This document shows, piece by piece, positions 14,646 through 64,000 of a stretch of 64,000 nt of DNA (position 1 is the stretch's first letter; each line of letters starts with the position of its first letter). Where the stretch lies: positions 46,591 through 110,590 of the forward strand of contig JBBHKE010002760.1 of NCBI GenBank assembly GCA_037447655.1, in the 5' to 3' direction. Source of the DNA: Zygnema cylindricum (taxonomy: Eukaryota; Streptophyta; Zygnematophyceae; Zygnematales; Zygnemataceae). The notes beneath the pieces are model-generated. The model had not been told where the DNA came from and ran no database searches. It was given only the letters and a program-made list of their open reading frames with translations. Position numbers and translations under genes: made by a program.

Positions 14646-14707
14646 ATACCTCTTCCCTCCAACTAAGGGTACCCTTACTGGTCCCCAGATATCTGTGTGG
14701 ATTAAAT

Positions 14708-14959: not shown

Positions 14960-14971
14960 TCTTTGGCTACC

Positions 14972-15709: not shown

Positions 15710-15885
15710 GCGGACCAGTGTATTCGAATTTCATCAACTATCAATCATTTCCTGTACCCGGTACACTATATTCTCATACTCGTCGGGTAGCTTCATGATG
15801 AGGGTGTTAACTTTCATTTTTATTGTACCTGTCCATCTGGCACTCTCCATCTCCATATAAAAACAAGAAAGATCATTACAGTAGT

Positions 15886-16350: not shown

Positions 16351-16414
16351 GGCTTACCAATAGATAATCCGTGATCCATTGAAGATGGGCACCTTAGAGG
16401 GTGGGCCTATAACC

Positions 16415-31319: not shown

Positions 31320-33019
31320 CCAAAGCACCGTTATTGTTTGTGCGAATACCGAGTGCTGTAGTCCTTTCCAGTCTTCAAAACTACTTCCTGCAAAGATTGC
31401 TTTCCAACTTCAACAGCAACGGCAAGAAAAGGGTGTTCTATGATGCCGTCAGTTCAAGCCGTTAATATAAATAGCAATCTCCGTGTCTCACTTGATTGGT
31501 CTTGGCACCAGCGTTGGCTGTACAGTACCTTCGTGGAAGGTTCCTTGGCTGGACGTTTTTCTCAACAGCCTGATTCATTGCCCTTAGCAAGCATTACTTT
31601 TGGAATCAAGCAGTTTTCTATCACTGCATGTGAGGTCTTTCACCTTTTAATTATGAACCTGCGCTGCTCCTTTTTCTGGATTGGCCTTTAAATGTTCTCT
31701 GAACTGAAGGTTTAACTCCGGCTATTCAAACCTTTTTGCTTTTGGAAGTAAGAAATTTCTACCTCTGCTTGTGGAAATCTCTTTCAACTTTTGGCTTCCA
31801 TTTTCCGTACAGTGGTCTATGTTGGCAGAGGGCATCCATTTCATTTGGCGTGACATTTGTGTTGTTGTTCTATTTGTTCAAGAATTCGTTAGTATTCTAA
31901 TTTAGTATCACAAAGTATTGTGATTTATAACTTAGAAAGGATGCGGGGCCGTCATAGCTGAATTGAAGTTGCCCCGGTTTTCATGGAGGACAAATTTTGG
32001 TACCTGAAGTTGCTGCAATTATGTCCCTGTGGGTTTTCTTTTCCTAGACTCTGACTTGTAATGTTTCTTAACTGAAGGTTTCAACTTTAGGCTTTTTATG
32101 GCTGTTAGAAACCCCTGTTTGTGAACCACACTATTTCTCATTAATCTATCAATACCAGTTTTTGTTCAAAATAAGCGATAAATGTCAAACCAGCATTATG
32201 CGGAATTCGCCCTGTTGAGTTTGCCAATCAGTGAAGTGCTAATGTTTCAAAAACTATTGAAGTCCAATCCTTTGCAAAATGCGAAAGAGGTGGACAGCTT
32301 TGGATCACTTTAGAGTTGAGAAAAGCACCATTGATATTATTAACGCTATTTTATGTTTAAGGACGAACATAACCGGCACAACCAAAAGAGTGTAAAACAG
32401 GCTAACAGTGATTCACCGTGTAGCTTCCATTATAAATTATATTCTATTATACTACATATGAAATGATATTATATATTGCAGAATTCATATATTATATGTT
32501 ATATGTTATATATTATATATGACATATTACATTATATAGATTTCCATAGTCAGCCATAACAAAAACATTCCTAACAAAATGATATGTGTATGATGTTACA
32601 ACCTTACCGGAGAAAAGATACCAAAAATTACATTTAATGAAACGAACATCATAACAACAGTTATAAGCTTAAGTGACTCTCTACTATACTTTGTCAGGAA
32701 ATGGAAGGACGACCAGCCGAAATTTCCAAAAATCCTAAAAAACGAAGGACTCCATACAAGATAAAAGCAGACAGCCTTGTGGCTACAATTTGGGTCCACA
32801 TTCGGTCCAATTTAGGTCTATTGTGGGACGTATCTTTTTGAACTGAAGAGGAGCATTGGCCGTGTCGATTAAAGTGAAACTCGGTACAGAAGGGAGTTCG
32901 CCATAGGGCGATCCGAGGGAAGAAGAAGGGGGGGAACAACAATAAAAAACGGCAAAACTGGCAACAATCTGACCTTCCTCCGAAATCATCCACTTGCTGT
33001 AGGACGGTACATAGCGTCA
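31320..33019. other. Intergenic region
   Basis: No gene supported. Probably the 3' flank of the split exon on one side and of the KCP2 homologue on the other. A strongly AT-rich TATATG stretch lies at about 32,440-32,540. Short open frames have no exon structure. Confidence 0.4.
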
Positions 33020-41857: not shown

Positions 41858-42075
41858 GGCATCTTTGCCACCCCATAACTTATCGGTTGGTTGGCTGTTT
41901 TCAATGATTTTTCTTGCTACAGACTCAAGGGAGTCCAGACTGCACAAAAGTGTAGCCAGATTGTCAATTTGTATTCGTGAGCAGCAGTAGTTGTGGCTAA
42001 AAGTGGGCTTGTTAAAAACTACCTAGAGGCTTCCTGAATTCTGTAGTCCAATGGAGGACACAGAATTGCAAGGTT

Positions 42076-43251
42076 ATGGGCTCACCCTCTAAGGTGCCAA
42101 TATTCAACGAATCTGGGTTCATTTATTGGGAAGCTATGATGACAAGGGCTTTGTGTGAAAAACGATACTGGGGTTTCGTCAGTGGACAAGTGAAACGTCC
42201 ACCTTCAAGAACTCCACCAAGATTTGGAGGACTAAGGTTTTTTGCAGCAGCGACTGCTTCACCGAATGAGGCAAATGATGGGGACAGCAGTGTGTCCAAA
42301 AAGGGGAAAGGGAAGGAGACACCCCTTACTCCTATTGTCACGGAACTTGGAGCGGCGGCCGTGAAGACCGCGGAGAACGACACTCAAATATGGGAGGACG
42401 TAAACATGGCTGCCAAAAACTTCATTATAAGGCAACTCACTCAAGCTTTGGACAACCCTCATCCTCACATTTACAAGGCCGAGGGGTTATGGGTGAGTTT
42501 GGTGGAGATCTATAGAGCTGGTACTATTCAGTAGCTCCAGTTGGCCGAGCAAAAGTTAGGAAATTATACTTACAAAGGGGGAAAGATGTTAGACTACTGT
42601 AATGATCTCTCTTGTTTGTATATGGAGATGGAGGGTGCCGGATGGACATGTACAATAAAGATGAAAGTTAACACTCTCATCATGAAGTTACCCGACAAGT
42701 ATGAAAACATAGTGTATCGATTACAAGAAATGACTGACAGTTCATAGAAGTGGAACACAGTGGTCCGGATGATACTTGTGCAGGAGAACACAATTGAGAT
42801 AAAGAGAGGAGGAAAGAGCATCTAAACTCTAGCTGGAGGAGCAAACCGATGGGGGAAGGATCCAAAAAAACCATACAATGGAGATACATATTAGTTTGGA
42901 GGACCGAGGCCCCCAAAGGTTCTTTGTTATTTTTGCAAAAAACTAGGACACTTCATAGCGGATTGTGTCAAGTTGTCGGAGCTAAGGCTCCAAGAGTTCC
43001 GTGGATGGGGTTCTTCAGGTGGAAAGAAGAAGGCATTTGTGGTCACAACAGTGAAAGGAGGGACCGAGGACGAGTCCTCTGAGAAGGAGGATGGGGAGCT
43101 TCTCCTTGACGAGAGCCTAGAGGAGAAGGAGATCCTTCGGAAACAAAAATGCGCTCTCGGAGCAATTCAGAAGCTCAACTTGAAGGATGGATCATCGACT
43201 CAGGTGCATCTATGTATATGTGTCGTGATATGCACCTTTTCACTAAGCTAA
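42076..43251 (+). pseudogene. Copia-3 gag with zinc knuckle
   Basis: One reading frame with a few stops (TAG at 42,532 and 42,745, others near 42,820-42,900). The UBN2-like part 'LWVSLVEIYRAGTIQ' is near residues 138-152. The intact CX2CX4HX4C knuckle 'CYFCKKLGHFIADC' starts at 42,925. The protease frame overlaps the end of this one from 43,149. Nucleic-acid-binding capsid protein by family. Confidence 0.85.
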
Positions 43252-43796
43252 GAAATATCCCTACTGTAGAGATAGAGTATGGGGATGGGAGATTGGTAAC
43301 TACAGATCTAGTGGGGTTGGTAGATTTGAAAGTCTTAGTGGAGGGTAAGACTTCTATACTCACCTTCTCAAAAGTACTCTACATTCCTCAGCTGAGTAAA
43401 AATCTTGTCTCTACGTCTGTGTTAGATGACAAAGAGTTTGATACCTTTATTAGAAAAAGAGTCTTTACAACTAAGTATGGGGATGAAGCCTACTCTACAG
43501 CAGATAAGGGTAGCAAAGGAATGTTTAGGCTTAACCTGAGTAATGAAAAGAAAAATGCTTACTATGTTGGTGTTCCAAAGATGATGATTTGGCATCAGCG
43601 GTTGGGGCATGTGCATTTTGATAGGCTGAGGGAAATGAAAAAGCTTGGTGTAGTAGAAGGCATTCAGTTTGGGGATAATGAAATGATGGATGATTGTAGT
43701 GGTTGTGCTGAAGGTAAGGCTCATAGACTTCCCTTTCCCAAAGTCGCCACATATAGGGGTGAAAAATTACTAGATTTGGTCCACACAAATATTTGA
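43149..43796 (+). pseudogene. Copia-3 protease and GAG-pre-integrase (open 215 codons)
   Basis: Aspartic protease active site 'DSGAS' at residues 17-21 (canonical), then 'YGDGR' and 'VLYIPQLSKN'. The GAG-pre-integrase has 'WHQRLGHVHF' and 'CSGCAEGKAH' near the end. The frame stops (TGA) at the junction to integrase, where 'LVHTNI' leads into '.GPVKVPS'. Confidence 0.85.
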
Positions 43797-44760
43797 GGAC
43801 CCGTAAAAGTACCTTCAGTCGGAGGGAAGAGGTTTATGTTGACAATAACCGATGACTGGTCTAGATACTCTAAAGTTTACTTCCTAAAAACAAAGCGTGA
43901 AACACTAACTTACTTTAAAGAATATAAAGCTTGGAGTGAAAGTTGCAAAAAACCCCCATTAAGAAAATAAGAAGTGATAATGGGGGAGAATTTTCCTCTA
44001 ACCAGTTTGAGGAATACTTGAGAGATGAGGGAGTTCAGCACCAAAAAATTGTACCATATAACCCGTAACAAAATGGGGTAGCTGAGAGGTTAAACCAAAC
44101 ACTAGGAGATAGTGTATTTAGTATGTTGGTTAATAAGAAAACAGGAAAGAGATTTTGGGTAAAAGCCATTAAGAATATGTGCCAACTACATTAAGAATAT
44201 AGTCCTTACCTCAGATGTAAAAAAAATGACACCTTATGAGAGATAGGTTGGAAGGAAACCAGATATCTCTCACCTTAAAGTGTTCGGTAGCCAAGTTTAC
44301 AGTCTTGACACGGACAGGAAAAAATGGAAACCCAGATGCTAAGGAAAAACCAGGATACTTTGTAGGATATGATGAAGATATCAAGGGATATAGAGTCTAT
44401 GACTTAGCAAAGAAAGTTATCATTCTGGTAAAACACCTAGTTGTCATGGATGAAGGGAAGTCATTGATCCCTTCAAATATACCAAGAAGATAAAAATCAG
44501 ATTTAAGTCCGAAAGTGAGGAGAACTTGGTTGTTCCCTAAAAAGACATGAGTGAAACATTGATTGAAGATTCAGGGGAGAACAAGGTACAAGAGATCCAT
44601 CGCAAACCTTACATATTCCTATGGACTTCGAGGAGAAAGAAGAGGAAGAACCGGAATCGGCTTTCATGGATGGGGGAGCCGATGAGACAATAAGGAGAAA
44701 TCCAAGACTTCCCTCCATCCTAGCTTCGGAGTTTGAGTGGGGGAGAAAGAACAGCAAACA
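43797..44760 (+). pseudogene. Copia-3 integrase
   Basis: Readable in changing frames: 'MLTITDDWSRYSKVYFLKTK', then 'RSDNGGEFSSNQFEEYL', then 'NGVAERLNQTLGD', which supplies the Asp and Glu of the DDE triad. The C-terminal region ('GYDEDIKGYRVYDLAKKVI') is at 44,340-44,493. Several frameshifts and stops, including two near 43,965 and 44,070. Confidence 0.8.
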
Positions 44761-47435
44761 GATTCAGGAAAAATAGGCCGCTCAGAAGGTAACTAAGCTA
44801 TCTCACCCAAATGAGCCGCAGTCTTACTCAAAGGCAGTAAACAGTTCGGAGAAAGAGAGATAGATTAGAGCCATTAATGATGAGATGGCCTCTATCATGG
44901 AACTAAATACTTAGGAACTAGCGGTCTGTCCTCCAAACATTAAACCGATTAGCTTTAAATGGGTGTTTAAACTAAAATTGAACCCAGATAATACCATTGA
45001 AAGATATAAGGCTCGGTTGGTAGCAAAAGGGTTCACCTAAAAAGAGGGAATTGACTATGATGAGACTTTTGCTCCATTTGTTCGGTTCCCATCAGTAAGA
45101 ATTCTCCTCAATTTAGCAGCACCAGAAGACATGGAAATACACCAGATGGATATTAAAACCGCTTTTCTCCATGGTGAGTTAGAGGAAGAAATTTTTATGC
45201 GACAACCACAGGGGTTCGTAAATGGAGTAAAGAGCAAAGTTTGCAGACTCATAAAGTCCTTGTATGGATGACACTGGAATAAGAAACTATATGAGTTTCT
45301 CACTGGTCTAGGATATATCCGGATCAGCTCTGACCGTTCTATATGCATGTTTGAAGATGAGAATGGTGTGATTTTTATTGCAATTTATGTGGATGATTTG
45401 TTGGTGTTAAGTTAGTCTTTGGAAAAGATAAATAACTTAAAAAAAGATCTTAGAAGCAGGTTTGACGTGAAGGATTTAGCTGAGGCAAGATATATTTTGG
45501 GAATTCAAATGGAGAGAGATAGGGGGAAAAGGATCATTAAACTTACTCAAAAAGAAGCAATAGGTAATATGCTTGAGAAATTCCAGATGGAAAAGGCAAA
45601 CAGTTGTACCACTCCCATGGACTTCAAGAAAGTAAGTGATGGGAGTGTAGAAGGAGGAGTGATAATCTTAGATGATCAGATGAGTCCAGGAGAGAGAGAG
45701 TTTATGAAGTCTATTCCTTATAGACAGGTTGTAGGAAGTTTAATCTACTTTATAAACTGTACCATGCTGGACATAGCCGCAGCAGTTAGAGTCCTCAGTA
45801 GGAGTCTTAATGATCCTAGAAAGAGAGACTGAGAGGCAACCCAAAGAGTCATGAGATATCCAATGGGAACAGAGGAATTATGGTTGCATTTGGGAGGGGA
45901 GCACACTCACATCACTACTCGGAGTGATGCGAGTTATGGGGATGCACCTATGAGAAAATGCACTTCTAGATATTAGTTGTATGTGGGAGAAAGTGTTTGC
46001 TGTTGGAGTAGTAAGCAACAAAAGGTGGTTACTCACTCTACTATGGAGGCTGAGCACATGGCCTCTTGTTCTGCTGTGAAAGAGTTGATGTGGGTCAAAT
46101 CTTTGCTACAAGAACTGGGTATGAGAAGGAGGGAGTGCATGAAGTATTTTGTGATAATCAGGCTGCCATTGCCATTGCAGCCAATCGAAAGCATCATTTC
46201 AAAGCTAAGCATATGGTCATAAGATTGAGTTTTGTGAGGGAAAAAGTAGAAAACAAAGTTGTGAATCTTGTGTATAAGTTGTAGAAATTAATGGTTTTTT
46301 AGTATTTTCTAGGTCTGAATAGAAATAAAGAAGCCGAGGTAGTCTACCTCTTACTTCTCTCTCCAACTCTCAAACTTGTCGGAGTCACTGAGAAATTGGA
46401 GAGGAAGCTAGAGCCATGGCTACCTAGGCTATCCTGAGGTTTACGGGAAATTTATATTAGTCAAGGGATTAATTACTAAAAGGTATGTGCCGCGACAGGA
46501 TTTGATCCTAGTACCTCCCGGCCGTCAGACGGAAGGTAGCCGGTAGCCTTAGCCGTTAAGTCTAGGAGTAGTGTTACATATATAGTACGATAAGTATTTA
46601 TATATGTACACGTAGGATAAATCATTTAACTATTACTGTTAACGGGATACATAGATATGGTAGTGTAAAAGTACAAATTGCGGTACGGATAAGAAATCAA
46701 TACCGCGCATTGATTTCGTAAGCGAAACAAATACCGCGCATGTATTTATTACGGCTAAGATCAAATGCGAGTTTAATCGGACGGCCGGAATTAGCGCCGA
46801 GATCGCGGAAGAAGAATTCGGCGGTTTGTGGGTATAGTCACATCGGATGACACGTGGCGATGTTACATTGGAGCACGGCATCTTCGATGATTAAAGGAGC
46901 GAATCCAGATATTCCACGTGTGGACATTTAGGCCATGTCGTACAATGTCCGTACATAAAGTACACCGGCAGCTATACTTTTGCGTACGGAACTGTAATAT
47001 GATTGGTTCCGTACATCAGTAGATAGAGGTTGTGAGAGAGATAGGACTTAGAAAAATTAGAAGATAGGACCCTCTCTCCCAGAGAGCTTCTGTACAAAAG
47101 GTCAACTTTGACCCTCTATAACTTACTGCTCAGGGGAGCAAATTCAGAGATTCTTTTTGCTATCAACTCAGGGGAGTCTTGCCTTCACAGGGGTGAAGGT
47201 GGTCAGTGTTTTTTTTTGCCAGGGTGGCAGTTATTTTTGCTTAAACACAAAGGGGTCAGGATTATCCTAGAGGCTTCTTGGAAGCTGTCCACTCTGAGGA
47301 TTTATGGAGGTCTCAGAGTTTCATAAGTCTGATGAAAAAATGATGGCTGATATGATGACCAAACTTGTGCAATCTCCCAAGTTAAAGTATCGTAGAGAAA
47401 AGTGTGGACTCAAAGAGAAGTTGAAACCAGACTAG
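44761..47435 (+). pseudogene. Copia-3 reverse transcriptase and RNase H, split by a solo LTR
   Basis: RT N-terminal sequence lies at 44,860-45,400 with stops. The catalytic 'IYVDDLLVL' is near 45,385, directly followed by a stop. The open piece 45,419-45,832 covers the palm end and connection. RNase H ('SKQQKVVTHSTMEAEHMAS', keeping both Glu of the STEAEY region) follows at 45,977-46,284 in two frames. The last ~37 codons lie at 47,324-47,435, beyond the inserted LTR, and end in TAG. Reading across one copy of the TAAGT duplication keeps the frame. Confidence 0.85.
46280..47323 (+). mobile_element. Solo LTR (L1-related, 1,044 bp) with 5-bp target duplication
   Basis: TGTAGAAATTAATGG...GAGGTCTCAGAGTTTCA, with TAAGT immediately before (46,275-46,279) and after (47,324-47,328). 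This fixes the L1-type LTR 3' end at 'GAGTTTCA'. It contains the shared LTR block 'AGTATTTTCTAGGTCTG', an antisense tRNA-like block near 46,495-46,570 and a hairpin near 46,945-46,990. Confidence 0.95.
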
Positions 47436-48130: not shown

Positions 48131-48332
48131 TGTGGAACGTGCCTAAGAACCGGAATGTTCAGGTACGATGTCCAAGGAGGTGTGCATAAAAAACCTGCAA
48201 TCCACTCCACACACTGATACTTACCCGGATCTGTGACCATGCCCATCTCTGTTCCTTACCCCCCCCCAGGGATATGCATAGATAATAATGAAGAATGGAG
48301 TGGAAAAGAGAAAGTACCCGGTACCCCCCCCA
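48131..48332 (-). repeat. 202-bp LTR-like direct repeat R1
   Basis: On the minus strand TGGGGGGGGTACC...GTTCCACA (TG...CA), highly similar to R2 at 49,518-49,718. Preceded on that strand by GGAAAAAGCAGAATC, a moderately purine-rich stretch. Probably an LTR. Confidence 0.65.
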
Positions 48333-49517
48333 GATTCTGCTTTTTCCACCGGAAGCAGAATAAATGCTACTCCCTTGACCACTCTCCAAAGAATAGAAAG
48401 GAAGTATAGTCGTTTGATCCGGCCCACAAGGACTCCGGACAGAAACCTCACGACGACCATAAGAGTACGCAAATAACTCCCACGCAGAAATATAGAAACA
48501 ATAAAAATCGGCTCTTTCAGGTTTAAAAATATCACCTTGCCCCAGAGAATGGAATAAGATATAGGTAAACAATAATGGTGAAGTAAGCAAACATACCCCG
48601 GAGTGCAAGATGACCAAACCCAGAAGAAAGAAACTCTCCCAATGGCCCCGAAGACAGGTATGAGTCTCCCTCACCCCTCGGTTCCGCCGTACGGATCCGA
48701 CAAGACTCTTCTAAGTTTCAAAGAGAGAAAGTCTAAACCGCCCAAAGGGAGAATAGTGCCAACCACCCACCCGAGCTACGGTCTCCACAAAAGACAATCC
48801 AAAACAAAGATGGCAATAGAGTCAATGACACAATGCAACAATTCTCCAACAGAAAGGTTGATTTAATTCTCTGTGGGCTTTCTCAGGAGACAGTACTGAA
48901 AAAGCAACCTGTCTTCTTTGGCCCCAAGTGCCTTATACAATCAGAGTTTGTCCTAATGCAAGTGCCAAAGTCAAAGCAATGTGGCAGGCCAATCAGCGGC
49001 CACCAATCGTTATCGCACGAACACAAGACAAGACAGTCTGTACTACACTCAGGGCTAAAATTTAGACGACTAGTTCTGGCTCGATTAGCGGCCGAAGGTC
49101 CTTCTATAATACACAAAAGGGCAAAAAAGTTCTGACTCGACGTGAAACCACCTAATTTTGACCCAACGTCATAAATGCTTTACCCATTTGTAGGGCCTGA
49201 ACTAACATCCTACTGACAGCTAACAGCAAGATCTACTGGACAATCTTAAAGGCTGCGTGCCGTTCCACAATGTACCCCTCCGCTAGAGTTACACAGAACG
49301 GATGCCATGTAATGGAGCCGCCACCTTTGCACCGGACTAACTCCGCAGTCCGACCTCCGTTTAAGGTGAACTAAAATGCGTTGTGCTCCATGGTAAAAAT
49401 ACAAAGATCTGATTTGGCTGGCTGTCCCCCCCCCTTCTCCGTACGCGAGAGTCCGTACAAGGTGGACGAGAATAAAAGGCACGCACAAAAGGGAAAATCT
49501 GGATAATCGACGATGGT
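48333..49517. other. Sequence between the two LTR-like repeats
   Basis: 1,185 bp without a supported coding frame on either strand. Could be the interior of a small LTR element flanked by R1 and R2, or host/TE DNA between tandem LTRs. Confidence 0.4.
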
Positions 49518-49718
49518 TGTCGAGCGTGCCTGAGAACCGGAATATTCAGGTACGATGTCCAAGGAGGTGTGCACGAAAAACCTGCAATCCACTCCACACA
49601 CTGATGCTTACTCGGATCTGTGACCATGCCCAATCTCTGTTCCTTACCCCCCCCAGGGATATGCATAGATAATAATGAAGAATGGAGTGGAAAAGAGAAA
49701 GTACCCGGCACCCGCCCA
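49518..49718 (-). repeat. 201-bp LTR-like direct repeat R2, probable gypsy 3' LTR
   Basis: Minus strand TGGGCGGGTGCCGGG...GCTCGACA. It begins about 50 bp after the stop of the PHD frame, preceded by the polypurine run AAGAGGGGGGGGGAATC, as expected of a 3' LTR start. Confidence 0.6.
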
Positions 49719-49765
49719 GATTCCCCCCCCCTCTTAGTCCCGCATGATTAAGAGGATTAGACAGG

Positions 49766-49915
49766 TTAGCCGCCAAACTCGCAGTCCCCACAGAACCACG
49801 GATTTGCGAGTTGAGAGGGGGGCTCCCAATTCACAGGTGGGCAACAGTCATGCCAACCCTGGTGACAGCGTTCACACACCAACAGGAGGTCGGGTACGAG
49901 GACACATGGCAGGCA
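49766..49915 (-). pseudogene. PHD finger at the C-terminus of gypsy pol
   Basis: The frame 'CLPCVLVPDLLLVCERCHQG' continues 'WHDCCPPVNWEPPSQL' and ends 'PWFCGDCEFGG' then TAA. Spacing is CX2C-X9-CX2C-X4-H-X2-C-X16-CX2C, a complete C4HC3 PHD finger with the conserved Trp two residues before the last Cys pair. PHD fingers bind histone H3 tails in specific modification states. It follows the integrase C-terminal piece but in a different frame, so one indel separates them in this copy. Chromoviruses have a chromodomain here. Confidence 0.75.
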
Positions 49916-51080
49916 GAGGAACATGACGGCGGGTCTGCAAAGTAAGTGAGGTGGAAAGTGGGTTCATCCTCTAACCCTCGCAGATGGCAAGGGGCCACAT
50001 TGATCTGATTTTCTTTAATTTTGCGGCCATCCTTCCCTTCTAAGGTAAGAACCCCTTTGTTTGACACCTCCACAACTTTCAAAATCACTCGTCCGGCCGA
50101 AATGTCCAACGTGTCCTTCTTTTGTTGCATGCGATACACAAAATCCCCGGGCACAAATCGCCGTTGCTAAGGGACATAATTACCGCTCCGGCGTTGGGAA
50201 TACCAAAGTTGATCCCTGTGCTGAGCAGCCTGTAAGTTGCCCATGGCCAGAGGTATTTCCCGCTGAAAGACCTTAGCCCTGTCTGCAATCAGGGTATCGA
50301 CAGTCCCCCGGTTGTTCATCTCCGGAAGCACAACCGCCTGAGCCGATGCAGCCCCGGGTAGGATGGGATGTCTGCCGAAAAGAATGAAGTAAGGGCTATA
50401 GGAGTGGAGAGATGCCTGCCTGCTGAACTTGTACCCCATGGCAATCGAAAGCACTCGTGTGTCTTACTCCCCCAAATCCTCTCCCACTGCATATTTCCGT
50501 AGTGACCCTTTCACTGTCTGTACGCACCTCTCGGCCAATCCGTTGGCTTGGGGGTCGTCTCGGGTGGTCAACCTGTGGTCAATGAGGCATTTCTCTAGAA
50601 GGTTAGAAAATTATGCGGCAAACTCGGACCCTTGATCTGTTAGAACTTCGGCCGGTGCTCCAAATTGAGACAAAACTCTCTGCAAAAATGCGTCTACGAT
50701 CGCTTTGGACTCCTTTCGGGGAAGAACCACCAATTTAATCTATTTAGAGAAGTGTTCAATCATGACCAGAACAAAACGGTTCCCCCTTCGGCTAGTGGGA
50801 TGTGGTCCCAGTAGATCCAGTGACCATCTGTAAAACATCCCCGAATGGGGAGGGAATGAAGTTCAGTCCCACCCTTTTTGTCAAAAGCAGCTTTCACTCA
50901 GTCACAAGAAGGGCACGTCTGCACCACACGATTGACCTGGGTCTAGAACCCATGCCACCAATACGACCCTGTGACCAGCGAGGTAGTTCGTTTCTGTCCG
51001 AAGTGCCCGCATTGCTGGTGAAGCCGAACAATGAGGGTTTCCCGATCTGCCAGAGGAGGAACCACTTTCCTTCTCCCATT
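49916..51080 (-). pseudogene. Gypsy integrase
   Basis: The HHCC zinc-binding part is at about 51,050-50,900 ('RLHQQCGHFGQKRT' then 'CPSCD', Cys pair at 50,904-50,915). The catalytic core shows 'SLDLLGPHP' near 50,815, 'LTDQGSEFAA' near 50,640 and 'PQANGLAERCVQT' near 50,540: all three DDE residues are kept. C-terminal pieces are 50,454-50,167 and 50,154 to about 49,916 ('FVYRMQQKKDTLDISAGRV'). Interrupted by stops (mostly TAG/TGA) and frameshifts. Confidence 0.85.
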
Positions 51081-51463
51081 GGCCCATTTCCGGAGAAGAA
51101 TGCCTCAGTCCCATTCATAAGCCGCCATTCGGTTCTGAACACGGGACAATTCACTTCCGGCAAGGTGGGGTAGAGGAGAGCCCTTTTGGATAGACTGGAG
51201 GGAATCGCTGTCATTCCATATATCCTTCCGGCCGGCTCCAATGGGGGCCTGCCCTTCAACATCTGATGCAAAAGTTGATAGTTCTCCTTCATCCCGAGGA
51301 AGCCAAATAAAAGCAGAAGAAGCTTGGATAAGTCCCAGGTTGAGCTCAGGGTCCTCATCGTGACGCGCCCCAGTAGAGTCTCAGGTGGACGGGTCCGGAT
51401 TCGTGCTGAGTCCGTCGGCGTTCCCATGAATCTCACCGGCTCTATAGATAATGCTGAAATCAT

Positions 51464-51863
51464 ATTTCTGCAAGATGAGAACCCAGCTGGCTAATTTTCC
51501 AGTCAACTTAGTGTTCTCCATGATCTATTTAATGGGCTGGTGATCTGTAATAAGGGAGAAGTGTACTCCATAGAGGTAAGGCCTGAAGTGCTGGATGGCC
51601 CAGACCGTGGCAAGTAATTCCCTATGGTAACTGCTGGAATTCCCCTCGGCTCTGTTATTACTCCGGCTTGCGTAGGCCACTACATTCTCAGCCCCAGGAT
51701 CGTCCAATTGAGCCAAAACTGCTCCCAATCCGAACTTGCTCCAATCTGTGTAAAAGAAAAAAGGCCGCTGGTGATCAGGCATCCGGAGCACCGGATGCTA
51801 TTTGAGGGAATCCTTCAGGAATTGGAACGCTGTTTGCTGTTCTTCTTTCCACTTTCACTCGTG
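51464..51863 (-). pseudogene. Gypsy RNase H with RT thumb remnant
   Basis: The open piece 51,791-51,525 reads 'PFFFYTDWSKFGLGAVLAQL', then 'AYASRSNN', 'SSYHRELLATVWAIQHFRPY' and 'LITDHQPIK', the standard Ty3/gypsy RNase H with its Asp and Glu residues. Upstream (51,863-51,800) is 'WKEEQQTAFQFLKDSL', typical of the end of the RT. The RT fingers and palm, including YXDD, are missing: an LTR fragment starts at 51,864. Confidence 0.85.
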
Positions 51864-52421
51864 TGAAACTCTAAGACCTCTATAAGTCCTCAGAGTGGAC
51901 AACTTCCAAGAAGCCTCTAGGATAATCCTGACCCCTTTGTGTTTCAGCAAAAACAACTGCCACCCTAGCAGATAAAAACTCTAACCACCTGCACCCCTGT
52001 GAAGGCAAGACTCCCCTGATCAATAGAAAAAAGATTCTTTGAATTTGCTCCCTTGAGGAGTAAGTTATGGAGGGTCAAAGTAGACCTTATGTACAGAAGC
52101 TCTTTGGAAGAGAGGGTCCTATCTTCTAATTTTTTTCTAAGTCCTTTCTCTCTCACAGACTCTATCTACTGATGTACGGAACCAATCAGAATACAGTTTC
52201 GTACACAAAAGTACAGCTGCTGGTGTACTTTATGTACGAACATTGTACGACATGGCTTAAATGTCCACACGTGGAAAGTTCGGATTCACTCCTTTAATCC
52301 TCGGAGATGCCGCGCTCCAATGTAACATCGCCACGTGTCATCCCGGTAATAATATTCGCACGAAACGTCGCGTGCGCACAAAATGTGGCGTACGCACGAA
52401 ACTAACATTTCAAAAACAACA
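51864..52421 (-). mobile_element. Chimeric LTR fragment inside gypsy pol, replacing the RT core
   Basis: On the minus strand the 3' end 'GAGTTTCA' at 51,864 and the following ~490 bp match the solo LTR at 46,280-47,323. The remaining ~75 bp (52,345-52,421, TGTTGTTTTTGAAAT..., 'GTTTCGTGCGTACG') resemble the start of the family B LTR instead. No matching target duplication: TCGTG on the left, CTATC on the right. The gypsy sequence missing between the two sides amounts to most of the RT. Confidence 0.65.
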
Positions 52422-52599
52422 CTATCGCTCCCCCCCACTGAGGAAGTTCCTGGGTTTGGTATTCTATTTAAATGTAATTTGGTGAATTTGAATTTTTCCC
52501 TCCTTGTCTCTCTCCCCCGCTCAAGCTTTAGTGTCGCTTGCATGGCTAACAATTGTGGGGCTTGAAGGTATGTTGTCTGTGATTGTGGAGACTGAAGGC

Positions 52600-53711
52600 T
52601 TGAGAATGCAAGAGAATGTTTCAGCACCCCGGAAATTGCATTTAAATCCATACTTTGTCCGATTAAACTACACCTTCGTGATGCCGAGACCCCTAGCGCA
52701 GCTCTGGTTCCCTGTTGAAATCCCATTGCTTGTTCCCGTTCTGCAATATTTGGTGCTGTCCATGTGGCGGTTGTACTGTCAAAGATCATTCTTGGTGCGC
52801 CCTCCCCGTAAGCGTGGCTGTTTGGAAACGATACCAGGGTTGGTAGTGCCTTCATTGGAGATCAAGGTTTATTGCAACAGAAAAAAGGTGCTCTGTCGGC
52901 TTTGGTCACTGGAGTGGCCATGCGTTCTGGTCCGAGAATCTGTTGAACTGTGATGTTGGGATCCGGAACCTGGGTTTTTAACAGCTTTGGAGGATGTGAA
53001 GAGGAACCAAGTTGGTCCAATAAGCCCGAACTCGGTGGGCTCTTGATCCGACCTGAGCTGCATCAAAAACTGTTGGAGTTCCCAGAACGTTGGTCACTTG
53101 GTTCCAGCTGTTAACCACCTGTTTTCTTTTATCATCGGTTGGGTGAACATTTTCCAAGACGTACCCCACTGGCGTGTCCTGGCGTTCTGGTATCTTTGTT
53201 ATTAGTCGCGTCATCTAGAAGAATGTTTTGCTGCGGACATCTTGGTGTCCCCTGCCCTGTCCTACTAACGAATACCCCTGGCACGGCCATCCAGCAATTA
53301 CTAGGTCCACCCTTCCAAGCTTTTCCTAATGTGAATTGGTGATATTGTCCACATTTTGGGGAAGCGTACGGTGAGAGTTAGACATGGGGGACACCGGTAG
53401 TTGCTGTGGGTAAAGTTGATGTAACTATTGCAATCGGTACTCACTGACTGCACGGGCGTCCGGATCAATCTCACTGCTGAGTACGCTTCTACTTGGTATC
53501 CAGCTTTGAGGACGGCCTCTAGATCGGAGCTAATGCCGCAAAATAGTGATAGAATCCTGAGTCCTGATGGCGGGACCTCCAGTGACACCACCTGTCGATT
53601 GAAGTCTTTCCCTTTGTTAGGAATCGTTGGAAGTTCTGACCACGGAACCTTTGCTATTCCGGATGATATTGCAGCAAAGCTCCTGTCCACTTCCCGACGA
53701 AGTGTGGCCAT
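52600..53711 (-). pseudogene. Cytosine-5 DNA methyltransferase (DNMT) domain in gypsy pol
   Basis: Motifs in linear order on the minus strand: I 'LRILSLFCGISSDLEAVLKAG' (LFCG at 53,535-53,546), IV 'DLVIAGWPCQGYS' (catalytic Cys codon 53,281-53,283), VI 'YVLENVHP' (ENV 53,146-53,154), VIII 'QVGSRAHRVRAYW' (near 53,020-53,055), IX-X 'AEREQAMGF' and 'LIGQSMDLNAI' (52,634-52,745). The order is not permuted, unlike plant DRM enzymes. DNMTs transfer a methyl group from S-adenosylmethionine to cytosine C5. Two frameshifts (between I and IV, between VIII and IX) and at least three stops (53,326, 53,215, about 52,865) kill this copy. Motif I continues the protease frame, so PR-DNMT was one polyprotein. 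Confidence 0.9.
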
Positions 53712-53765: not shown

Positions 53766-54590
53766 CTAGATGGAATTGGCGATATCGGGGGAGTGGTCGA
53801 ACAACTCCAAAAGGGTTGAGGTAGAGTATACGGGATAACAACCAGACACCGGAACAACAGTTTTTCCTTGGTTCCATAACTCCAAGGGGACCACCACTTT
53901 GGTACCCTCCGGATCCTTCGGGTCTGAGACTGTGATTTGTTCCTTCCATATGCTCAATTCCATGTTGAATCTTGTCCATGTGGCCATTCCCAGCAAAATT
54001 TCGAATTGTTTACCTTCCACCACTAGAAAGGGGATTTGAATTTGAGCTTGCTAGCCTGCATCATCCGCAAATTCAATTTCCATGGCTTTTATGATACCAT
54101 ATACTGGTTGGCTCCCACTGCTGACCGTACTCAGACATATGTCGCTGGGGTTGATTTTTGGCTGCAGTTCTTCGGGCATTTGTTGTAATGCTGAGGTGGT
54201 GATGAGATTAGGGAGAGCTCCAGTATCCACCACTGCATCTTGGTACCCGCCGTATCCATTAAGTTTAAAATAACCCGTTCTGTTTAGAATAAGAGCCACT
54301 GACAGGGCCTTATAATCTCTATCCGCCATAAAAGTTTTTGGTTCCGCCGACATGAAGACTGTCTTGGGTGGTTTTGCCAACACGACCCTTTCCCTCTTGG
54401 TGTGAATCTCTTCCCCTAGTGCCTGAATGAGGGTTTCTTCGGGCAGATTGTGGGAGGAAGCTAGAGTCTTGACGTGCGTCAGGGCGTAGGGCATCAAGTG
54501 TCGCACTAGCATGACTGCCGGTTTTGGGCGATGAAATTGGTGAGTCCTTGTCCTCCAATTTCTCCTGTCTCCCACCCCCTTCTTCCTCAC
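53766..54590 (-). pseudogene. Gypsy aspartic protease
   Basis: 'AVVDTGALPNLITTSAL' with the active-site DTGA at 54,216-54,227, then after one in-frame TAG at about 54,050 'FEILLGMATWTRFNMELS', the typical C-terminal ILLG of retropepsin-like proteases. The same frame, after a TAG near 53,767, runs into the DNMT N-terminus. Would have cleaved the polyprotein. Confidence 0.85.
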
Positions 54591-54867: not shown

Positions 54868-55497
54868 TTACATCGGTTGTTTGTCTTTCCTCTGGGAAGA
54901 CGTTGTAGAGCGCAGTTGTCTTTGACTGTCCCCTTCACCAACGTTCCAGGCTCCGGACAGAAATGTCCGAGCATGATGAGCCTTTGGAGGCTCCATATCC
55001 CAGCCCATTAGGTCATCATCATCTCCATCCACCGTGGTCTGCTGTTCTAGCTCCGCTAACTTTTGTAGCAGTTTTTGTTTTTGCTTCTGCAATTTTTGAG
55101 CCGGTGTAAGAGGTTGAGAAGTGCGGGCAGGGGATCTTAATCTTAGAGCAGCCAGTTCTGTTGCCAAAGTGGCCAACTGGGTGCTTTGTTGCTGAATGAT
55201 ATGTTCCGGTGTTAGTCTGCTGGGTCCCGGTTCATTTGGAGATTCACATCCCCAAGGATACAAAAGTTGCAACGGTAGAGGATTATTGACAGTTTCCCCT
55301 TCACCTGTGAACAAAGCATATTGCATCATTTCCTTTGGAACCCCATTCTTCTGAAAGCATTGCCCTTTTTTGTGGCCCATGAACCCACAAGCTTCACATT
55401 TCGACCCCTCAGTAGTATACTTCCCCCTTAGCTCATTAGAGATTTGAGCGTCATCAAATTTCGGAAGTCGGATTTGTCTCAACTGGGATTGAGACAT
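54868..55497 (-). pseudogene. Gypsy gag, second zinc-knuckle segment
   Basis: 209 codons with the CX2CX4HX4C knuckle 'CEACGFMGHKKGQC' at 55,357-55,398, then a Leu/Gln/Lys-rich coiled-coil-like part ('LQKQKQKLLQKLAELEQQ'). It lies between the main gag and the protease; an additional acidic linker ('DTESEEEGGG') is readable at 54,669-54,319. One frame apart from the main gag. Confidence 0.75.
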
Positions 55498-55556
55498 CTT
55501 AGCGGTTTCAGAGCGTGGAGTAGGTTTATATGTATCCTTGGTGACCGGTGTTCGGT

Positions 55557-56732
55557 CTACTCCTCCGCCTCCTTGCTTACGTTCCTGCTGCTTCTGGTTC
55601 TTTCTGCACGCTCTCTCTCAAACTCATTCTGCTTGATGGCGAGTTCTGGTTTGAGCTTTCGGGGGCACCTTTTCCATCCGTGACCGGGCTGGTTACAGTT
55701 TAGGCAGTCGTAAAGAAAAACTTTTTCATCTGCCCCCATTGCAGGTTCTGGTCGGGCATCTGCTTCCTGTTTCCCCTTAACCTTCCGCAAAGCTTGCAGT
55801 TCTGTCTGTTCGTCGTGACTGAGCGATGTTTCCCCGGCGAAACGTGCAAAGTTGGCTCTTGATTTCCCGGTAACACCCTTTTCTCGTGCCTCGCTATGAA
55901 CAAAATGATCATACAATTTCATAGCAGCCAATAAAATTTCTTGAGCTGTGGGATTCCGGTCGTGTATAGCCTGACTGGCACTCCAATTGTCCAGAGCTGC
56001 CTGTCCTGTTGGCCCGAAGGAATGCAGAACAGCGACATAATATTTGGTGGCGATAGCCGGTGCATCGATGGTGGACAGTTTGGTCTTCTGGCAGAGGCAT
56101 GAGAGGCGGTTGAACAGCGTATGGGGAGTTTCATTCTTCAAACAGCGGAAGTCTGTGAACTCCTTGATGGCAGTTTCGTTCGTTTCTGTGTAAAGAAGTC
56201 TCCAAGCGTCCAGAAGAGTGGTACAGGGATTAGGATTGGCAACCATGCTGTTGGCTGCTTCGGCTGCGTGTATCGCCTGCAGGTGGTTGACATTGGCCCT
56301 GCCTTGGGCCTGAAGTTTCATATCCATAGTGAAATTGGGGGTGAGAGGAGCTGCAGCTGCGGCAGCCAGGTCGTCTGCTGCCTGAAGAGCCTCGGCGTCC
56401 AGATCCGGATCCGATATTTTGATACTGGGGGCCATCAACAAAGGTTGACGCTCCTTATAATCGGCCAAAGCTCCTCCGGCTAGATAATTTACCATCATCG
56501 GAAACAGGGTGGTTTCAAAATCTGCTGGAATGGCCCCTCCCCTGTATTTGTTAATTTCGGACTGCGTGAAGGATTTCCACAGCAGTTCAAAATCAGAGAA
56601 AGCAATTCCCGAGTTGTCTCCGGTGAAGATCCGGACGTCCGCCCATTCTCCTTTCTTCTTCGGTAAGATTGGTGAACCTTGGTGACGCTTGTCCGGTCGG
56701 GCTGACAAACTGAACCGGTGAGATTGCCCCAT
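55557..56732 (-). CDS. Gypsy gag core with zinc knuckle (open 391 codons)
   Basis: Longest open frame of the element. The capsid-like region at residues ~30-290 includes 'WKSFTQSEINKYRGGAIPAD' and 'EFTDFRCLKNETPHTLFNRL', a retrotransposon-gag pattern. The knuckle 'CLNCNQPGHGWKRC' (CX2CX4HX4C, perfect) is at 55,665-55,706, followed by a charged tail. The N-terminal start is uncertain because upstream gag sequence (56,811-58,069) is readable in other frames. RNA packaging and particle formation by family. Confidence 0.8.
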   Translation of the reverse strand: MGQSHRFSLSARPDKRHQGSPILPKKKGEWADVRIFTGDNSGIAFSDFELLWKSFTQSEINKYRGGAIPADFETTLFPMMVNYLAGGALADYKERQPLLMAPSIKISDPDLDAEALQAADDLAAAAAAPLTPNFTMDMKLQAQGRANVNHLQAIHAAEAANSMVANPNPCTTLLDAWRLLYTETNETAIKEFTDFRCLKNETPHTLFNRLSCLCQKTKLSTIDAPAIATKYYVAVLHSFGPTGQAALDNWSASQAIHDRNPTAQEILLAAMKLYDHFVHSEAREKGVTGKSRANFARFAGETSLSHDEQTELQALRKVKGKQEADARPEPAMGADEKVFLYDCLNCNQPGHGWKRCPRKLKPELAIKQNEFERERAERTRSSRNVSKEAEE

Positions 56733-58069
56733 GATCTGCTACCTCAAGATCCGAACTGGTCCCTCCTTCGATGGGAAGGGCGGTTGTACCAGCAGTGGTC
56801 CTCTCCCCCACGGAGGAAGGTCTGGTCCTTGGAAAAGTGGGATAGTCGTCTGCCCCTCTATATCCGAAGAGGCACGTGCTTTCCGGAGGACTTCCTCTTC
56901 CGATGGTATGTGAAGACGAGGGCGAGGTTTCCGGGTAATGGATGGCGATGGAGAGGGTGATGACTGGAAGCTTGGAGGAGAAGGTGACTGTTTCCTGAAA
57001 AGAGTCTGCTTCCTAGGTTGCCTCTAAGAACCTTCGAGAGGAGGAGTTCCGGAACTAGAGGATGGCGACCGTCTGTCAGGAGGCGAGTAGACGTCGGGTT
57101 TGTGGGGTAGGCGAGGTGAACCTGTTGACCCCCGGACTGCTCCTGCGGGAGAGATGGATTGCGAGGGGGAAGGGGCGTGAGGTGGTGATGGAGGAGGAGT
57201 GGTAATTCGGAGGGAGATGTGTAGTCTCCGGTCGGGTTGTAGCTGCACCACAGCCTCCACGGTAGAGGATCCCGCGAATGAGACAAATGTAGGGAGATCT
57301 GTAGCCGCAGCTACCGGATTACTCGACAAATCTGCACCCAACCCCTCTTTGTTAGGCCCCGTTGTTTCCTCCCCTTCCTGCTGAAGAGGAGATTTTGGTC
57401 TCAGTGTTGGTGATGTCCTGGTATCTCTTGTGACCGGAGGAGTTGCTTGATCTAGAGGTCGTACTTCCGCTGCAGGAACTGTTCTACGAGGAGGGATTAC
57501 CTGTCCACTAAGGATTCCCCCAGATTTTCGTCTAGCTTCCCGTATCAAGACCAACTCTTGTTCTAATGCCCTCTTCTTTTCCTCTTCAAGAGCATCCCAA
57601 TCTATTGCGACGGGTACGGCCCCGCCACAGCATTATCCTGCGATCGCAAGATCTCCACCAATTTCTGGGTGCTGCTCACCACACCCGAGAGATCAGCAAT
57701 CCCCAAACCGGGTACCTCGGGGTCCGTAGGCCTTGAACGCCATAGTCCTTCGGATGGTCGGACAAGTGGTTCGAAAGGAGAAATAGAACTCGGGGACATT
57801 GATGCAGAAGGAAAGAGCGGCTCTTCTTTGGCTAGAGGAGAAAAATGACCTTTGCTGACCCGATGATTCAACCGGAAATTTCTCTGAGGCTCGGGTAACT
57901 TCCGCTTGCTACTCCCTTCCCTAGTCCGGCCCCTAGAAGTTGCTCTGCCCCTAGAAGGTCTACTGGTGGCAGTTTCTTGAGAGACGGTAGACTGCGGTTG
58001 GGTAGCAAACGGCCTCTCCGGTTGCTCTCGGGCTGAGATGGGAGAGCCACTCTCGGACGAGCTACTCAT
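56733..58069 (-). pseudogene. Gypsy gag N-terminal, Pro/Ser-rich region
   Basis: The probable start is ATG at 58,069 ('MSSSSESGSPISAREQPERP'). A low-complexity Ser/Pro/Arg-rich sequence runs to 57,602 in one frame, 57,554-57,024 in another, then 56,811-56,593. No domain recognised; the composition suits a disordered gag N-terminus. At least two frameshifts. Confidence 0.55.
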
Positions 58070-58216
58070 GATCTCCACTACTCCTCCCACTGGGCGTATA
58101 ATCCGGGCTCGGTCGGTTCTGGAAACCCGCTACACCAGCTCCTTCTTAACCTTCAACTCATGGATGTTGTGAAGAGTTAGAATCTCCTTACGACCAGGTC
58201 GGTTAGGGTCCGCCAA

Positions 58217-59151: not shown

Positions 59152-59715
59152 TGTTTTTTTCGAAAAGTCAGTTTTGTGCGTACGAGACAGATCGGGTGTA
59201 ACTGCTAATTGGATTTAATATGGAGGTTTGAATAGATTCACGGATTGGGGGAGCGAACGGATTGATATAATAAAAGTGACGTAAAAGACTCATTGAGTGG
59301 TGTGAACAAGCTGTGACAAATGGACGGCAGATCGCGAAGTGATCCGATGTAAAATAAACGGAATGTTGAAATAGGCGCCGTCGGTACGGCGGAGCTGTGA
59401 CGCAGTTAATTCAACGCAGCTGCTGCTATTTTTATGATCCGTACGGACAAGCGCAGCCAGAACAACTGTGGATAATGTGAATAGGACAGATTTTGGGTAA
59501 TGATGATTGTACGGTAGTGGTAGCTTAATAGTTGCTTAGCGGTAGCTTGGTTTTTGACATATGAAGAGTGCGGTGTAAATATTATGTAAAACAGAGGTTT
59601 GTCCTTTGGAATAATTAGTTTATTAGAGTAGATACAGTACGGCTGGTATGCCTCCGTACATTCAGTAGTCTGAGTGTAACTTGTAAGACTTAGATTATTT
59701 TATGCATCACAGTCA
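59152..59715 (+). mobile_element. LTR of family B, copy B (~564 bp)
   Basis: TGTTTTTTTCGAAAAGTCAG...ATCACAGTCA, with the tRNA-Met-like priming region 'TTAATCAAAGC' just downstream. Homologous to 11,684-12,206 and 62,078-62,649. Confidence 0.7.
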
Positions 59716-60108
59716 AGTTAATCAAAGCAATGGCAAACTGTTTTCTGCATCTTTGACCTGTTGGTGTGATCACTCTGTTTGTTACATTCATGTGAAACTT
59801 TGTGAAGTTATTATATGATATAGAATATATATGTTTTTCCAGTTTCATTCTATTCTGTTATCTTTGTAATATTCTGTGTGAGGTCTAAGTGGTTAGTTTG
59901 TGAAGCTGTCAACTATTTTTGTGAAACTCTGGAGCTTATATCTTCTAGATTCTTTGGTGAATTTGGGTGTAACTTTGGGAGCTTATAGTGTCTATAGTAT
60001 AATGTCTATTGGTGTAGTTTGTGGCTATTTTATTTATTGTGGAGTATTCTGTGCTGTCTGAAACACAGGTGTTTGAGGGGTAGTCGGTGGGGCTTCCATG
60101 TGTAGTCC

Positions 60109-61870: not shown

Positions 61871-64000
61871 TTAAGTCCTGAACAACTCTCTCTCACAGCT
61901 GAGGCATAAAGAGGACTAAAGCTTTCTAAAAACAACAAAATACAATGAAACTTCACCAACATATAGATTCTATATCATGTATTAACTCCACAAAGTTTCA
62001 CATGAAAGCACCAAACAGAGTGATCACACCAGCAGGTTAAAGATGCAGAAAACAGTTTGCCATTGCTTTGATAAACTTGACTACGATACATAAAATAATC
62101 TAAGTCATGCAAGTTATACTCAGACTACTAAATGTACGGAGGCATACCAGCCGAACTGTATCTACTCTAATAAACTAATTAGCCAAAAGGACAAACCTAT
62201 GTTGTACAAATTATTTACATCGCAATCTTCGTATGTTATAAACCAAGCTACCGCGAAGCAACTACTAAGCTACCACTACCGTACAATCATCATTACTCCT
62301 AATCTATCCTAGTCATATTATCCTCAGCTACGCTAGCTGCGCTGGCTGCGCTTGTCCGTAAGGATCATACAAATAGCCGCAGCTGCGTTGACTTAAATGC
62401 GTCGCAACTCCGCCGTACCGGCGACGCCTATTTCAACATTCCGTTTATTTTACATTGGATCGCTTCGCGATCCGCCGCCCATTTCTCACAGCTTGTTCAC
62501 ACCACTCAATGAGTCTTTTACGTTACTTTAATTATATCAATCCGTTCGCTCCCCCAATCCGTGAATCTATTCAAACCTCCATACTAAATCCAATTAGCAG
62601 TTACGCGCGAACTGTGTCGTACGCACGAAACTGACTTTTCAAAACAACACTCCCCCGAAAATTTAGTTTCGTGCACCCATAAAATATGCAGCGTGTAATG
62701 CTATACTTCTTTGTTGTGCTAGTTTGACATTGCAGCGCAGTATGAATACAAAGTGCAGCGTGTACTGCTATGCTGCCATGCTGCACTAATTCGACATCGC
62801 AGTCCGAGCTGGTTCTCTTTTTCACCCTTGACTTCCTCCTCATAGCCTCATCTACTGAGACTAAAGCTTTCAAATTCTACACTCCCCTAAAGCATTAGAC
62901 TCATTAATCTATGTTGTATGCAAATATTTCCACTCTAATGGATAAACAAAAGAATAGAAAGAAATATTTTAATATTCAAAATTATGTATCAACCTCCACT
63001 GTTCATCATACAAGAATTTGAACAAAAACAACACATCACCACTGCTTTGCCGACGTCGCCATTGCTCCATCTGCCCTCTGCCAATTCCCATTCGCTTCTT
63101 GCCTTCTTGCAAAAAGTGTCATGTAATAGCTCCCCTTACTCCATAAATGCATAACCTCGAATATTTAGTTGTGTGTACCTGGAATAGAATAATCAGCGTG
63201 TAAGTGTCATACATCACCACTCATTTCGCTGTGGCGCTATGTTGTGTTGTTGTTCCCGACGCGAACTGCTTCCGATGATTCTCCACTGCTTTCGATGCGC
63301 TTTGCCATTTCTTTCAAAATTTTACTTCCTGAACAAGTCATTGCTTCCATTACCTCCTTTGCTTCAAAAAATACATAAATAAATCTTTTTGTTTCTTTTC
63401 AACTAACTCAACAAGGAAGATTACAAATCTAAAATCTTACCAAAAACAAATCGAATGCCAAACAAAGTGTTCTTTATAAGACATGCTTGTAATATAAGTT
63501 TTTCCAAAATTAAGATTTCTCTAAATTCACATTATTCAAAAAATGTCCTCCAGAAAATCATTTCACCCGCTCTCTTATCTTGATCACTTTCTGAGCATGT
63601 TTTCTTCTACCCTTGATCCTTTGAATATTATGTCTTTTTTTTGTTCTCTTAATGATCTTTTGTCTTGTTTGAAGGTATGCATTTCTGTCACAATTTTCTA
63701 CTAGTTTAATGTCAAAAATACTTGTTTTTCTCTTTCACCTTTATGTTTTTCTCCATAGATTTGCTACTTCCATCTACTTCATTCTTCTCAGAAATGTTAA
63801 TTTTGATTCTTCTTCTTTTCAACTGGACTCTTTTAACTTTTGCATTTCTATTACATTTTTCACTCCCACAAACTTCTTTTCTCACTCAAATTTTCATGAA
63901 TAGTTTTTCTTTGTTTTTCTCTTAGTTCACCAATTTTCACGGCCACCTTATTTCTAGTTTCTACTTCTAAGTGTCCATCACTTCTTTCAACTCCTCTTAC
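61871..64000 (-). mobile_element. Family B element, copy C (runs off the window)
   Basis: Minus strand: leader (61,871-62,077), LTR 62,078-62,649 (TGTTGTTTTGAAAAG...CGTAGTCA, 572 bp), polypurine tract TTTTCGGGGGAG, 3'-UTR repeats (62,680-62,800), then internal sequence homologous to 10,950-11,400 of copy A and beyond. No gag seen in this part. Short open frames near 63,700-63,925 are not convincing. Confidence 0.7.

Follow-up and report, generated by a model that had tools for sequence, protein, structure and literature searches.

A decayed Ty3/gypsy retrotransposon of Zygnema cylindricum with a Dnmt3-type DNA methyltransferase, and its green-lineage relatives

Chromoviruses are Ty3/gypsy retrotransposons with a C-terminal chromodomain. 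In KnitGypsy-Dnmt3 of Klebsormidium nitens (de Mendoza et al. 2018, PMC5890265), the Gypsy Pol contains a Dnmt3-related DNA methyltransferase (DNMT), and the excerpted text of that paper reports DIRS-like repeats and purifying selection. The same excerpts describe SymbioDIRS-Dnmt3 of Symbiodinium, where Dnmt3 also lies in Pol and the repeats have the order A-coding-B-A-B, and state that K. nitens has fewer copies of DNMT retrotransposons than Symbiodinium. Dnmt3 in streptophyte and dinoflagellate retroelements is mentioned in the excerpts of PMC12344493; those of PMC10952607 contain nothing on such elements.

The element analyzed here resembles KnitGypsy-Dnmt3 in its Gypsy Pol with a Dnmt3-related DNMT, in its DIRS-like repeats, and possibly in purifying selection. 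It shares the order DNMT-RT-RH-IN with the K. nitens protein P0016, which belongs to the same clade. Unlike KnitGypsy-Dnmt3 as described, it has many matches in its genome (at least 123 scored, host genes included) and a C-terminal PHD finger, the term "phd" occurring 0 times in the excerpted main text of PMC5890265 and the P0016 protein being partial. The stop codon between protease (PR) and DNMT in its family is a further difference. With SymbioDIRS-Dnmt3 it shares the location of Dnmt3 in Pol and the repeat order, but that element belongs to another retroelement class, uses a tyrosine recombinase rather than a DDE integrase, and has CG activity in yeast (PMC5890265, excerpts). Like chromoviruses, our element has a chromatin-reader domain C-terminal to the integrase, but this domain is a PHD finger instead of a chromodomain. 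The PHD finger, the PR/DNMT stop, a palindrome at the junction of the B and A repeats and trees that join the carriers in one lineage are new beyond KnitGypsy-Dnmt3. A literature search, in which subscription papers were poorly covered, found no report of the PHD finger, of the conserved stop or of carriers in chlorophytes or Marchantia.

The locus is probably a dead copy of a green-lineage Ty3/gypsy lineage that captured a Dnmt3-type DNMT, that also has a C-terminal PHD finger, and that worked as proposed below. It raises the question of why an enzyme of a type that normally serves to silence transposons would be carried by one.

The element in the window

The window is a stretch of 64,000 nucleotides within contig C2073 of an assembly of 352.8 Mb (~353 Mb) in 2,689 contigs. 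On its minus strand lies an element that is, judged from its sequence, a dead and internally deleted Ty3/gypsy copy with a Dnmt3-type DNMT between protease and RNase H (Table 1). Stop-to-stop ORF pieces were each searched separately against Pfam. The piece with the PCQG motif alone matches DNA_methylase with an E-value of 5.4e-6 (26.5 bits, cut-off 22), whereas none of the remaining three pieces of the DNMT, searched singly, gave a match to this family. In a genome-wide DNA_methylase search the locus reaches 3.0e-10 (47.1 bits) with two internal TAG codons.

The pol ORF of the genomic relative L013 was used as a reference for alignment with tblastn, and its residues 1–440 and 818–1520 match the window in six segments of 81–93% identity. 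Residues 1–440 are found at 53765–52421 with 81–90% identity in the successive frames -3, -2, and -1; the DNMT domain is therefore complete, though interrupted by at least two frame changes. The domain bounds computed from this alignment, about 53594–52579, are close to the span of 52600–53711 given by an earlier sequence-only reading. That reading had placed a DNMT inside a Ty3/gypsy element, which is confirmed by the DNA_methylase match over the claimed span, by the L013 alignment and by the protease and RNase H on either side. RT is missing, as L013 pol residues 441–817 have no tblastn counterpart, and the repeat found in this gap is 90% identical to 46845–47323 in the opposite orientation.

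Pfam matches of the window pieces to RNase H (8e-27) and the integrase H2C2 domain (1.2e-7) are above cut-off. Those to rve (3.4e-5) and PHD (0.11) are below, and the gag and PR pieces gave no match above cut-off; in L013 as well, Asp_protease_2 (2.1e-4) is slightly below. With the repeats of contig C1374 as blastn queries, the 5' repeat A1 was not found beyond the 5' leader, and the palindrome at the B/A junction has decayed. Since its frames are broken and its RT is lost, the window copy itself is incapable of methylating its own DNA.

Just one of the four short DNMT pieces passes Pfam alone, as might be expected if the similarity were due to chance or if an unrelated DNMT fragment had been inserted in one dead element. 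We rejected this explanation as next to impossible, because the DNMT is 81–90% identical along its full length to the protein of an open relative and other genomic copies are arranged in the same way. The DNMT belongs to the family and is not a one-off insertion; the outcomes that the sequence-only reading had named as refuting did not occur.

Table 1. Parts of the window copy, by position in the window
Feature	Position	Strand	Basis
Repeat B2, 3' end of element	48131..48329	-	blastn with B repeat of C1374; direct repeat of 49518-49723, 93.75%
Repeat A2 (split direct repeat)	48345..49466	-	84% to A1 of C1374, 1132 aligned columns
Repeat B1	49518..49716	-	blastn with C1374 B repeat
Purine run, polypurine-tract-like, just before B1	49723..49733	-	sequence; G run in the corresponding position of relatives
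C-terminal PHD-finger region of pol, decayed	49769..49897	-	81% to L013 pol 1478-1520; Pfam PHD E 0.11
Integrase (H2C2 zinc domain and rve core), broken frames	49891..51104	-	Pfam; L013 alignment
RNase H	51384..51797	-	RT_RNaseH 1e-26 on 51528-51797; remainder via L013 alignment
Gap: linker and RT missing	51864..52423	.	51864-52343 is another repeat
Dnmt3-type cytosine methyltransferase domain, three frames	52579..53594	-	Pfam, genome search, L013 alignment; relatives' best PDB match DNMT3A
In-frame TAG then CAATTC, between PR and DNMT	53766..53768	-	sequence
Aspartic protease (VVDTGA)	53769..54524	-	87% to L013 PR ORF
gag, two zinc knuckles (by eye; no Pfam match)	55341..57416	-	64% to L013 gag, 739 columns
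5' leader part	57423..58215	-	blastn with C1374

Other repeats are present in the window. A 40-bp satellite of about 135 copies (3838–9230) adjoins a 101/202-bp tandem array at 1128–3843. Copia-like fragments, recognized by eye, form a large inverted pair at 12629–16595 and 41890–45836, with pieces that are 80–87% complementary. At 59155–59865 and 61928–62647, inverted repeat arms of ~0.7 kb (88–91% complementary) enclose 2 kb, possibly a DNA transposon.

Relatives in the same genome

At least 123 of 782 candidates in the genome were scored as DNA_methylase (PF00145) matches, all above cut-off, and 85 of these have no internal stop; host genes are included in both counts. Twenty loci, chosen mostly for long open frames, were fetched, and a motif IV pattern was found in 19 of them. 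It reads WECQ in 11 loci (family A) and WPCQ in eight (family B, the family of the window copy); L017 has neither.

The domain order in the relatives is gag-PR-DNMT-RT-RH-IN-PHD. All of these domains are contained in a single ORF of 2395 residues in L009, where the repeats are 100% identical. L014 and L015, with repeats 99.6 and 99.5% identical, have their coding part in three and four ORFs. A polyprotein fusion from gag to integrase, as the sequence-only reading had supposed, is thus present as an intact frame in L009, which belongs to the other family, but in the window's own family it is interrupted by the stop described below. The L009 ORF matches rve (1.7e-11) and H2C2 in Pfam, as does that of L013, and the order PR-RT-RH-IN is found in both. 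No chromodomain was detected in L009 or L013 at an E-value of 0.1.

The Pfam PHD match has an E-value of 1.5e-9 in L009 and of 0.0044, below cut-off, in L013. The nearest solved chains are those of PHF12, BAZ2B, WSTF, lid/KDM5, and PHF21A, followed by others including CHD4 and UHRF1; several of the nearest are known as readers of unmodified H3. A PHD finger of this kind would steer insertion to chosen chromatin. At least 150 of 984 PHD candidates in the genome were scored. Among the matches listed, 20 of 150 follow a DNMT match at no more than 9 kb downstream, 16 of them at a distance of 3.76–3.82 kb, which favors our explanation; the other 130 lie farther than 9 kb away or not downstream, which counts against our explanation. 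According to the excerpts of PMC9915684, Zygnema cf. cylindricum SAG 698-1a has a PHD family enlarged at least 9-fold, and if the present genome is from that strain, PHD fingers borne by Gypsy elements could explain the enlargement.

The PR ORF of family B is closed by a stop codon, after which the DNMT-pol ORF continues in the same frame. This bears on the earlier statement that motif I is in the protease frame: the frame is indeed the same, but the TAG at 53768–53766 intervenes. The patterns used to find this site did not require a stop, duplicates were removed and the window was included. A stop is present at all nine distinct loci with the site, as TAG-CAATTC in seven and as TAG-TAATTC and TAA-CAATTC in one each. 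Two other fetched loci did not yield the site: L007, and L019, a family B copy with a DNMT truncated at its start. At the DNA level L028 is 67.8–75.1% alike to the window copy, and L021 aligns with it in the coding part over just 151 bp (72%). The stop is kept in both and so outlasts much divergence.

With a stop at 9/9 family B sites, DNMT-pol would need readthrough. The readthrough signal of tobacco mosaic virus is UAG-CAR-YYA, and the context of the stop is near it. Normal termination would yield gag-PR, and a minor share of ribosomes would read through TAG-CAA-UUC to produce gag-PR-DNMT-RT-RH-IN-PHD. A conserved RNA fold beside the stop found no support, with an unfavorable covariation term, which counts against our explanation; RNA structure as an aid to readthrough was rejected. 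Many copies of both recent and old date seem to coexist in this one genome, in two families that differ in how they are expressed: through a single ORF in one and by way of a stop codon in the other.

The repeats are arranged as A1-coding-G run-B1-GC-A2-B2, a DIRS-like layout with TG..CA ends. Split repeats in the order A-coding-B-A-B were resolved in six of seven contigs tested, and plain long terminal repeats at both ends were not encountered in these six; the seventh, C544, has no resolvable A/B repeats. A1 and A2 are 100, 99.6, 99.5, 97.8, 93.5, and 80.3% identical in the six contigs. Exact 4-bp duplications flank three of the six copies (TTGG, AAGG, and CCCT), three of four letters match in C1811 and C449, and C1374 has no flank duplication, a point against our explanation. 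C1374, a family B copy, also has an extra B repeat and a stretch of 3.7 kb of other DNA (31633–35348) between two B repeats.

The palindrome GACAGCTGTC is found at the B/A junction in 6/6 resolved copies, which suggests integration from a circle. In our reading, B starts at the polypurine tract, so that the join of A2 and B2 looks like an end-to-end join of a two-repeat circle. Second-strand DNA synthesis would start at the G run. The integrase would then open the circular two-repeat DNA at its B-GC-A junction by cutting GACAGCTGTC, with loss of the GC, and insertion with a 4-bp duplication would leave an A-coding-B-A-B copy, permuted because the circle was cut at a palindrome inside the repeat. 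No primer site of the TGG type was seen by eye in the 12–20 bases after A1, which weighs against this scheme. The split repeats might instead have been made by a tyrosine recombinase acting in trans, by the DIRS route, but we consider this very doubtful. The L009 ORF has its own rve and H2C2 domains, and no member of the phage-integrase family (tyrosine recombinase) was detected in L009 or L013 at an E-value of 0.1. The TG..CA ends and the 4-bp duplications in 3/6 copies are integrase-like; DIRS insertions are not known to have either. The layout of the repeats is that of DIRS elements, and DIRS-like repeats were remarked in K. nitens too (PMC5890265, excerpts); both would suit the recombinase route. 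The anatomy of these repeats also lends itself to testing whether an internal palindrome in a circle can serve a DDE integrase as its substrate.

Kind, conservation, and activity of the methyltransferase

The best PDB matches of the DNMT domains from the relatives are to DNMT3A (1.5e-14 and 8.4e-11), followed by DNMT3C and DNMT3B. A profile of nine alignment rows that we picked by hand matches DNMT3A at 4.2e-22 (82 bits), DRM-type chains at 4.3e-12 to 8.5e-11 (45–49 bits), HhaI at 7.8e-11 (up to 45 bits), and DNMT2 at 29–35 bits. Among enzymes of known structure, the profile comparison places the retro-DNMT nearer to DNMT3A/3B than to DRM2, DNMT2, or the bacterial enzymes. The nine rows have 40 invariant columns, including Cys-Gln of motif IV, Glu-Asn of motif VI, and AHR.R.

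Among 43 DNMT domains of at least 300 residues, the catalytic cysteine is kept in 39 (34 with CQ and five with CE or CK) and lost in P0003, P0068, P0069, and P0072. Glu-Asn of motif VI is likewise present in 39 of the 43, with Glu-His in P0003. The median dN/dS of the DNMT is 0.29 in family A (5 usable of 21 pairs) and 0.26 in family B (6/6), and that of RT is 0.23 (4/28) and 0.15 (3/6), respectively; the pairs are not independent. The DNMT values, from few pairs, range from 0.116 to 0.403 and are below 1, yet above the Ka/Ks < 0.2 of the K. nitens paper.

We propose that the DNMT would be packaged with RT and methylate the new cDNA before or at insertion. Four steps of our scheme are inferred: readthrough, methylation of the cDNA, use of a circle, and targeting by the PHD finger. 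Among them, methylation of the cDNA has the least support. CpG loss was considered as a footprint of self-methylation. The observed/expected CpG ratio is 0.88–0.95 in the coding part of family A (8 loci), 0.655–0.667 in family B (6 loci), and 0.657 in the window copy. It is 0.81–0.84 in other DNA of the window (0.96 in the satellite) and 0.62–1.28 in six flank pieces. The CpG loss expected after heavy self-methylation and mutation is absent in family A, and the low CpG of family B comes without a matching TG/CA excess, this ratio being 1.01–1.09 in both families. The footprint was rejected, as the CpG ratios support no carrier-specific decay driven by methylation, nor do they clearly favor the earlier suggestion that the element could methylate its own DNA.

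It is also conceivable, though we think it rather unlikely, that the DNMT acts without methylating the element, either as a DNA- or cofactor-binding scaffold or by damping transposition to the benefit of the host. Besides the missing deamination signature in the CpG and TG/CA ratios, such a role would agree with P0072 (Chlamydomonas reinhardtii CHLRE_09g398141v5), P0068, and P0069. These are open ORFs with a PHD finger and a DNMT-homologous domain (E-values of 1e-34 to 3e-39) in which motifs IV and VI are not recognizable, and a dead methyltransferase has seemingly been kept in the element. They count against our explanation, as does P0003 with its lost cysteine. Also on this side, yeast with the K. 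nitens DNMT, an enzyme of the same lineage, gained no methylation, a result that its authors call inconclusive because human DNMT3B failed too (PMC5890265, excerpts). Methylation by the DNMT is favored by the catalytic cysteine in 39/43 domains, by the dN/dS of 0.12–0.40, and by two SymbioDIRS-Dnmt3 enzymes, from the other retroelement class, that methylate CG in yeast (PMC5890265, excerpts).

Carriers in other species and the number of captures

One protein search for relatives gave 21 proteins and another the best 120 of 274; the 148 proteins examined comprise 139 from the database and nine from this genome. The DNMT precedes RT in 26 of them (layout I) and lies between RNase H and IN in 22 (layout II), and there are eight other DNMT carriers. 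The remaining 92 are without a DNMT in the same ORF, through a separate ORF or loss, which counts against our explanation. Named carriers, irrespective of layout, are from Klebsormidium nitens (P0016), Marchantia polymorpha (P0092), Chromochloris (P0015), Haematococcus (P0020), and Chlamydomonas reinhardtii (P0072); those of Closterium sp. NIES-54 (P0074, P0085, and P0090) have a partial DNMT. Gypsy elements of layout II (P0015, P0072, P0008, and others) resemble the window's family in their homologous DNMT, in their C-terminal PHD finger and, for members with enough RT, in their RT clade. They differ in that the DNMT has moved, P0015 has a G-patch, and P0072 has lost the DNMT motifs.

The RT tree has 88 rows; P0015, P0020, P0074, and P0085 have too little RT and were left out, and the chosen outgroup does not fall on one side of a branch. 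All 42 carriers in it are in one clade (SH-aLRT 100) of 76 rows, 34 of them without a DNMT in the ORF. Layout II forms one group (99), and layout I is intermixed with rows without DNMT. The DNMT tree, of 65 rows with domains of at least 240 residues, was rooted on eight outgroup rows. It has all retro-DNMTs on one side (98) with layout II nested among them (98). The K. nitens protein P0016 falls within the RT clade of the carriers (100) and groups with the other retro-DNMTs in the DNMT tree (98), in agreement with common descent of the K. nitens element and the one analyzed here. A smaller pair of trees gave the same split between layouts, and the long branches P0086, P0018, and P0079 are placed unsurely. 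The clustering of retro-DNMTs fits the excerpts of PMC5890265, where those of K. nitens belong to a clade that is more divergent than that of the multi-exonic Dnmt3 of the host.

As the trees place the named carriers, the green-algal and Marchantia elements appear to be one lineage with one later relocation of the DNMT, which also supports the earlier view that the DNMT was captured and is of the charophyte kind. If layout I and layout II elements had each taken a Dnmt3 gene, in two or more independent captures, this would account for the different position of the DNMT in the polyprotein, and the excerpts of PMC5890265 interpret the K. nitens element as having acquired its DNMT within that lineage. 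Both trees are also without green-algal host Dnmt3 genes. In the best 120 of 1450 matches of a protein search for these (about 187–595 residues), no protein bears the name Dnmt3, and 17 retro-like rows (at least 95 bits) stand apart from the rest (at most 80 bits). Independent captures are nevertheless unlikely, since layout II is a single nested group in both trees, all 42 RT-tree carriers share one clade, and a C-terminal region with an invariant LPT is common to both layouts.

With a single capture preferred, a wider picture can be put forward tentatively: one ancient Gypsy lineage of charophytes, chlorophytes, and a liverwort may have combined a Dnmt3 writer with a PHD reader, controlled its yield of DNMT-Pol through a programmed stop in one branch, and integrated by way of a circle junction. 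Should a single capture account for the Gypsy carriers from chlorophytes to a liverwort, methyltransferases borne by retrotransposons would be old and persistent in green plants rather than the curiosity of one alga.

Two observations concern the ends of individual proteins. Beyond the PHD finger, P0008 and P0018 contain a stretch that by eye resembles a second, adenine-type methyltransferase (DPWAGT .. TSPWF or TSPHF). The G-patch of P0015 is above the Pfam cut-off, and that of P0008 is slightly below it.
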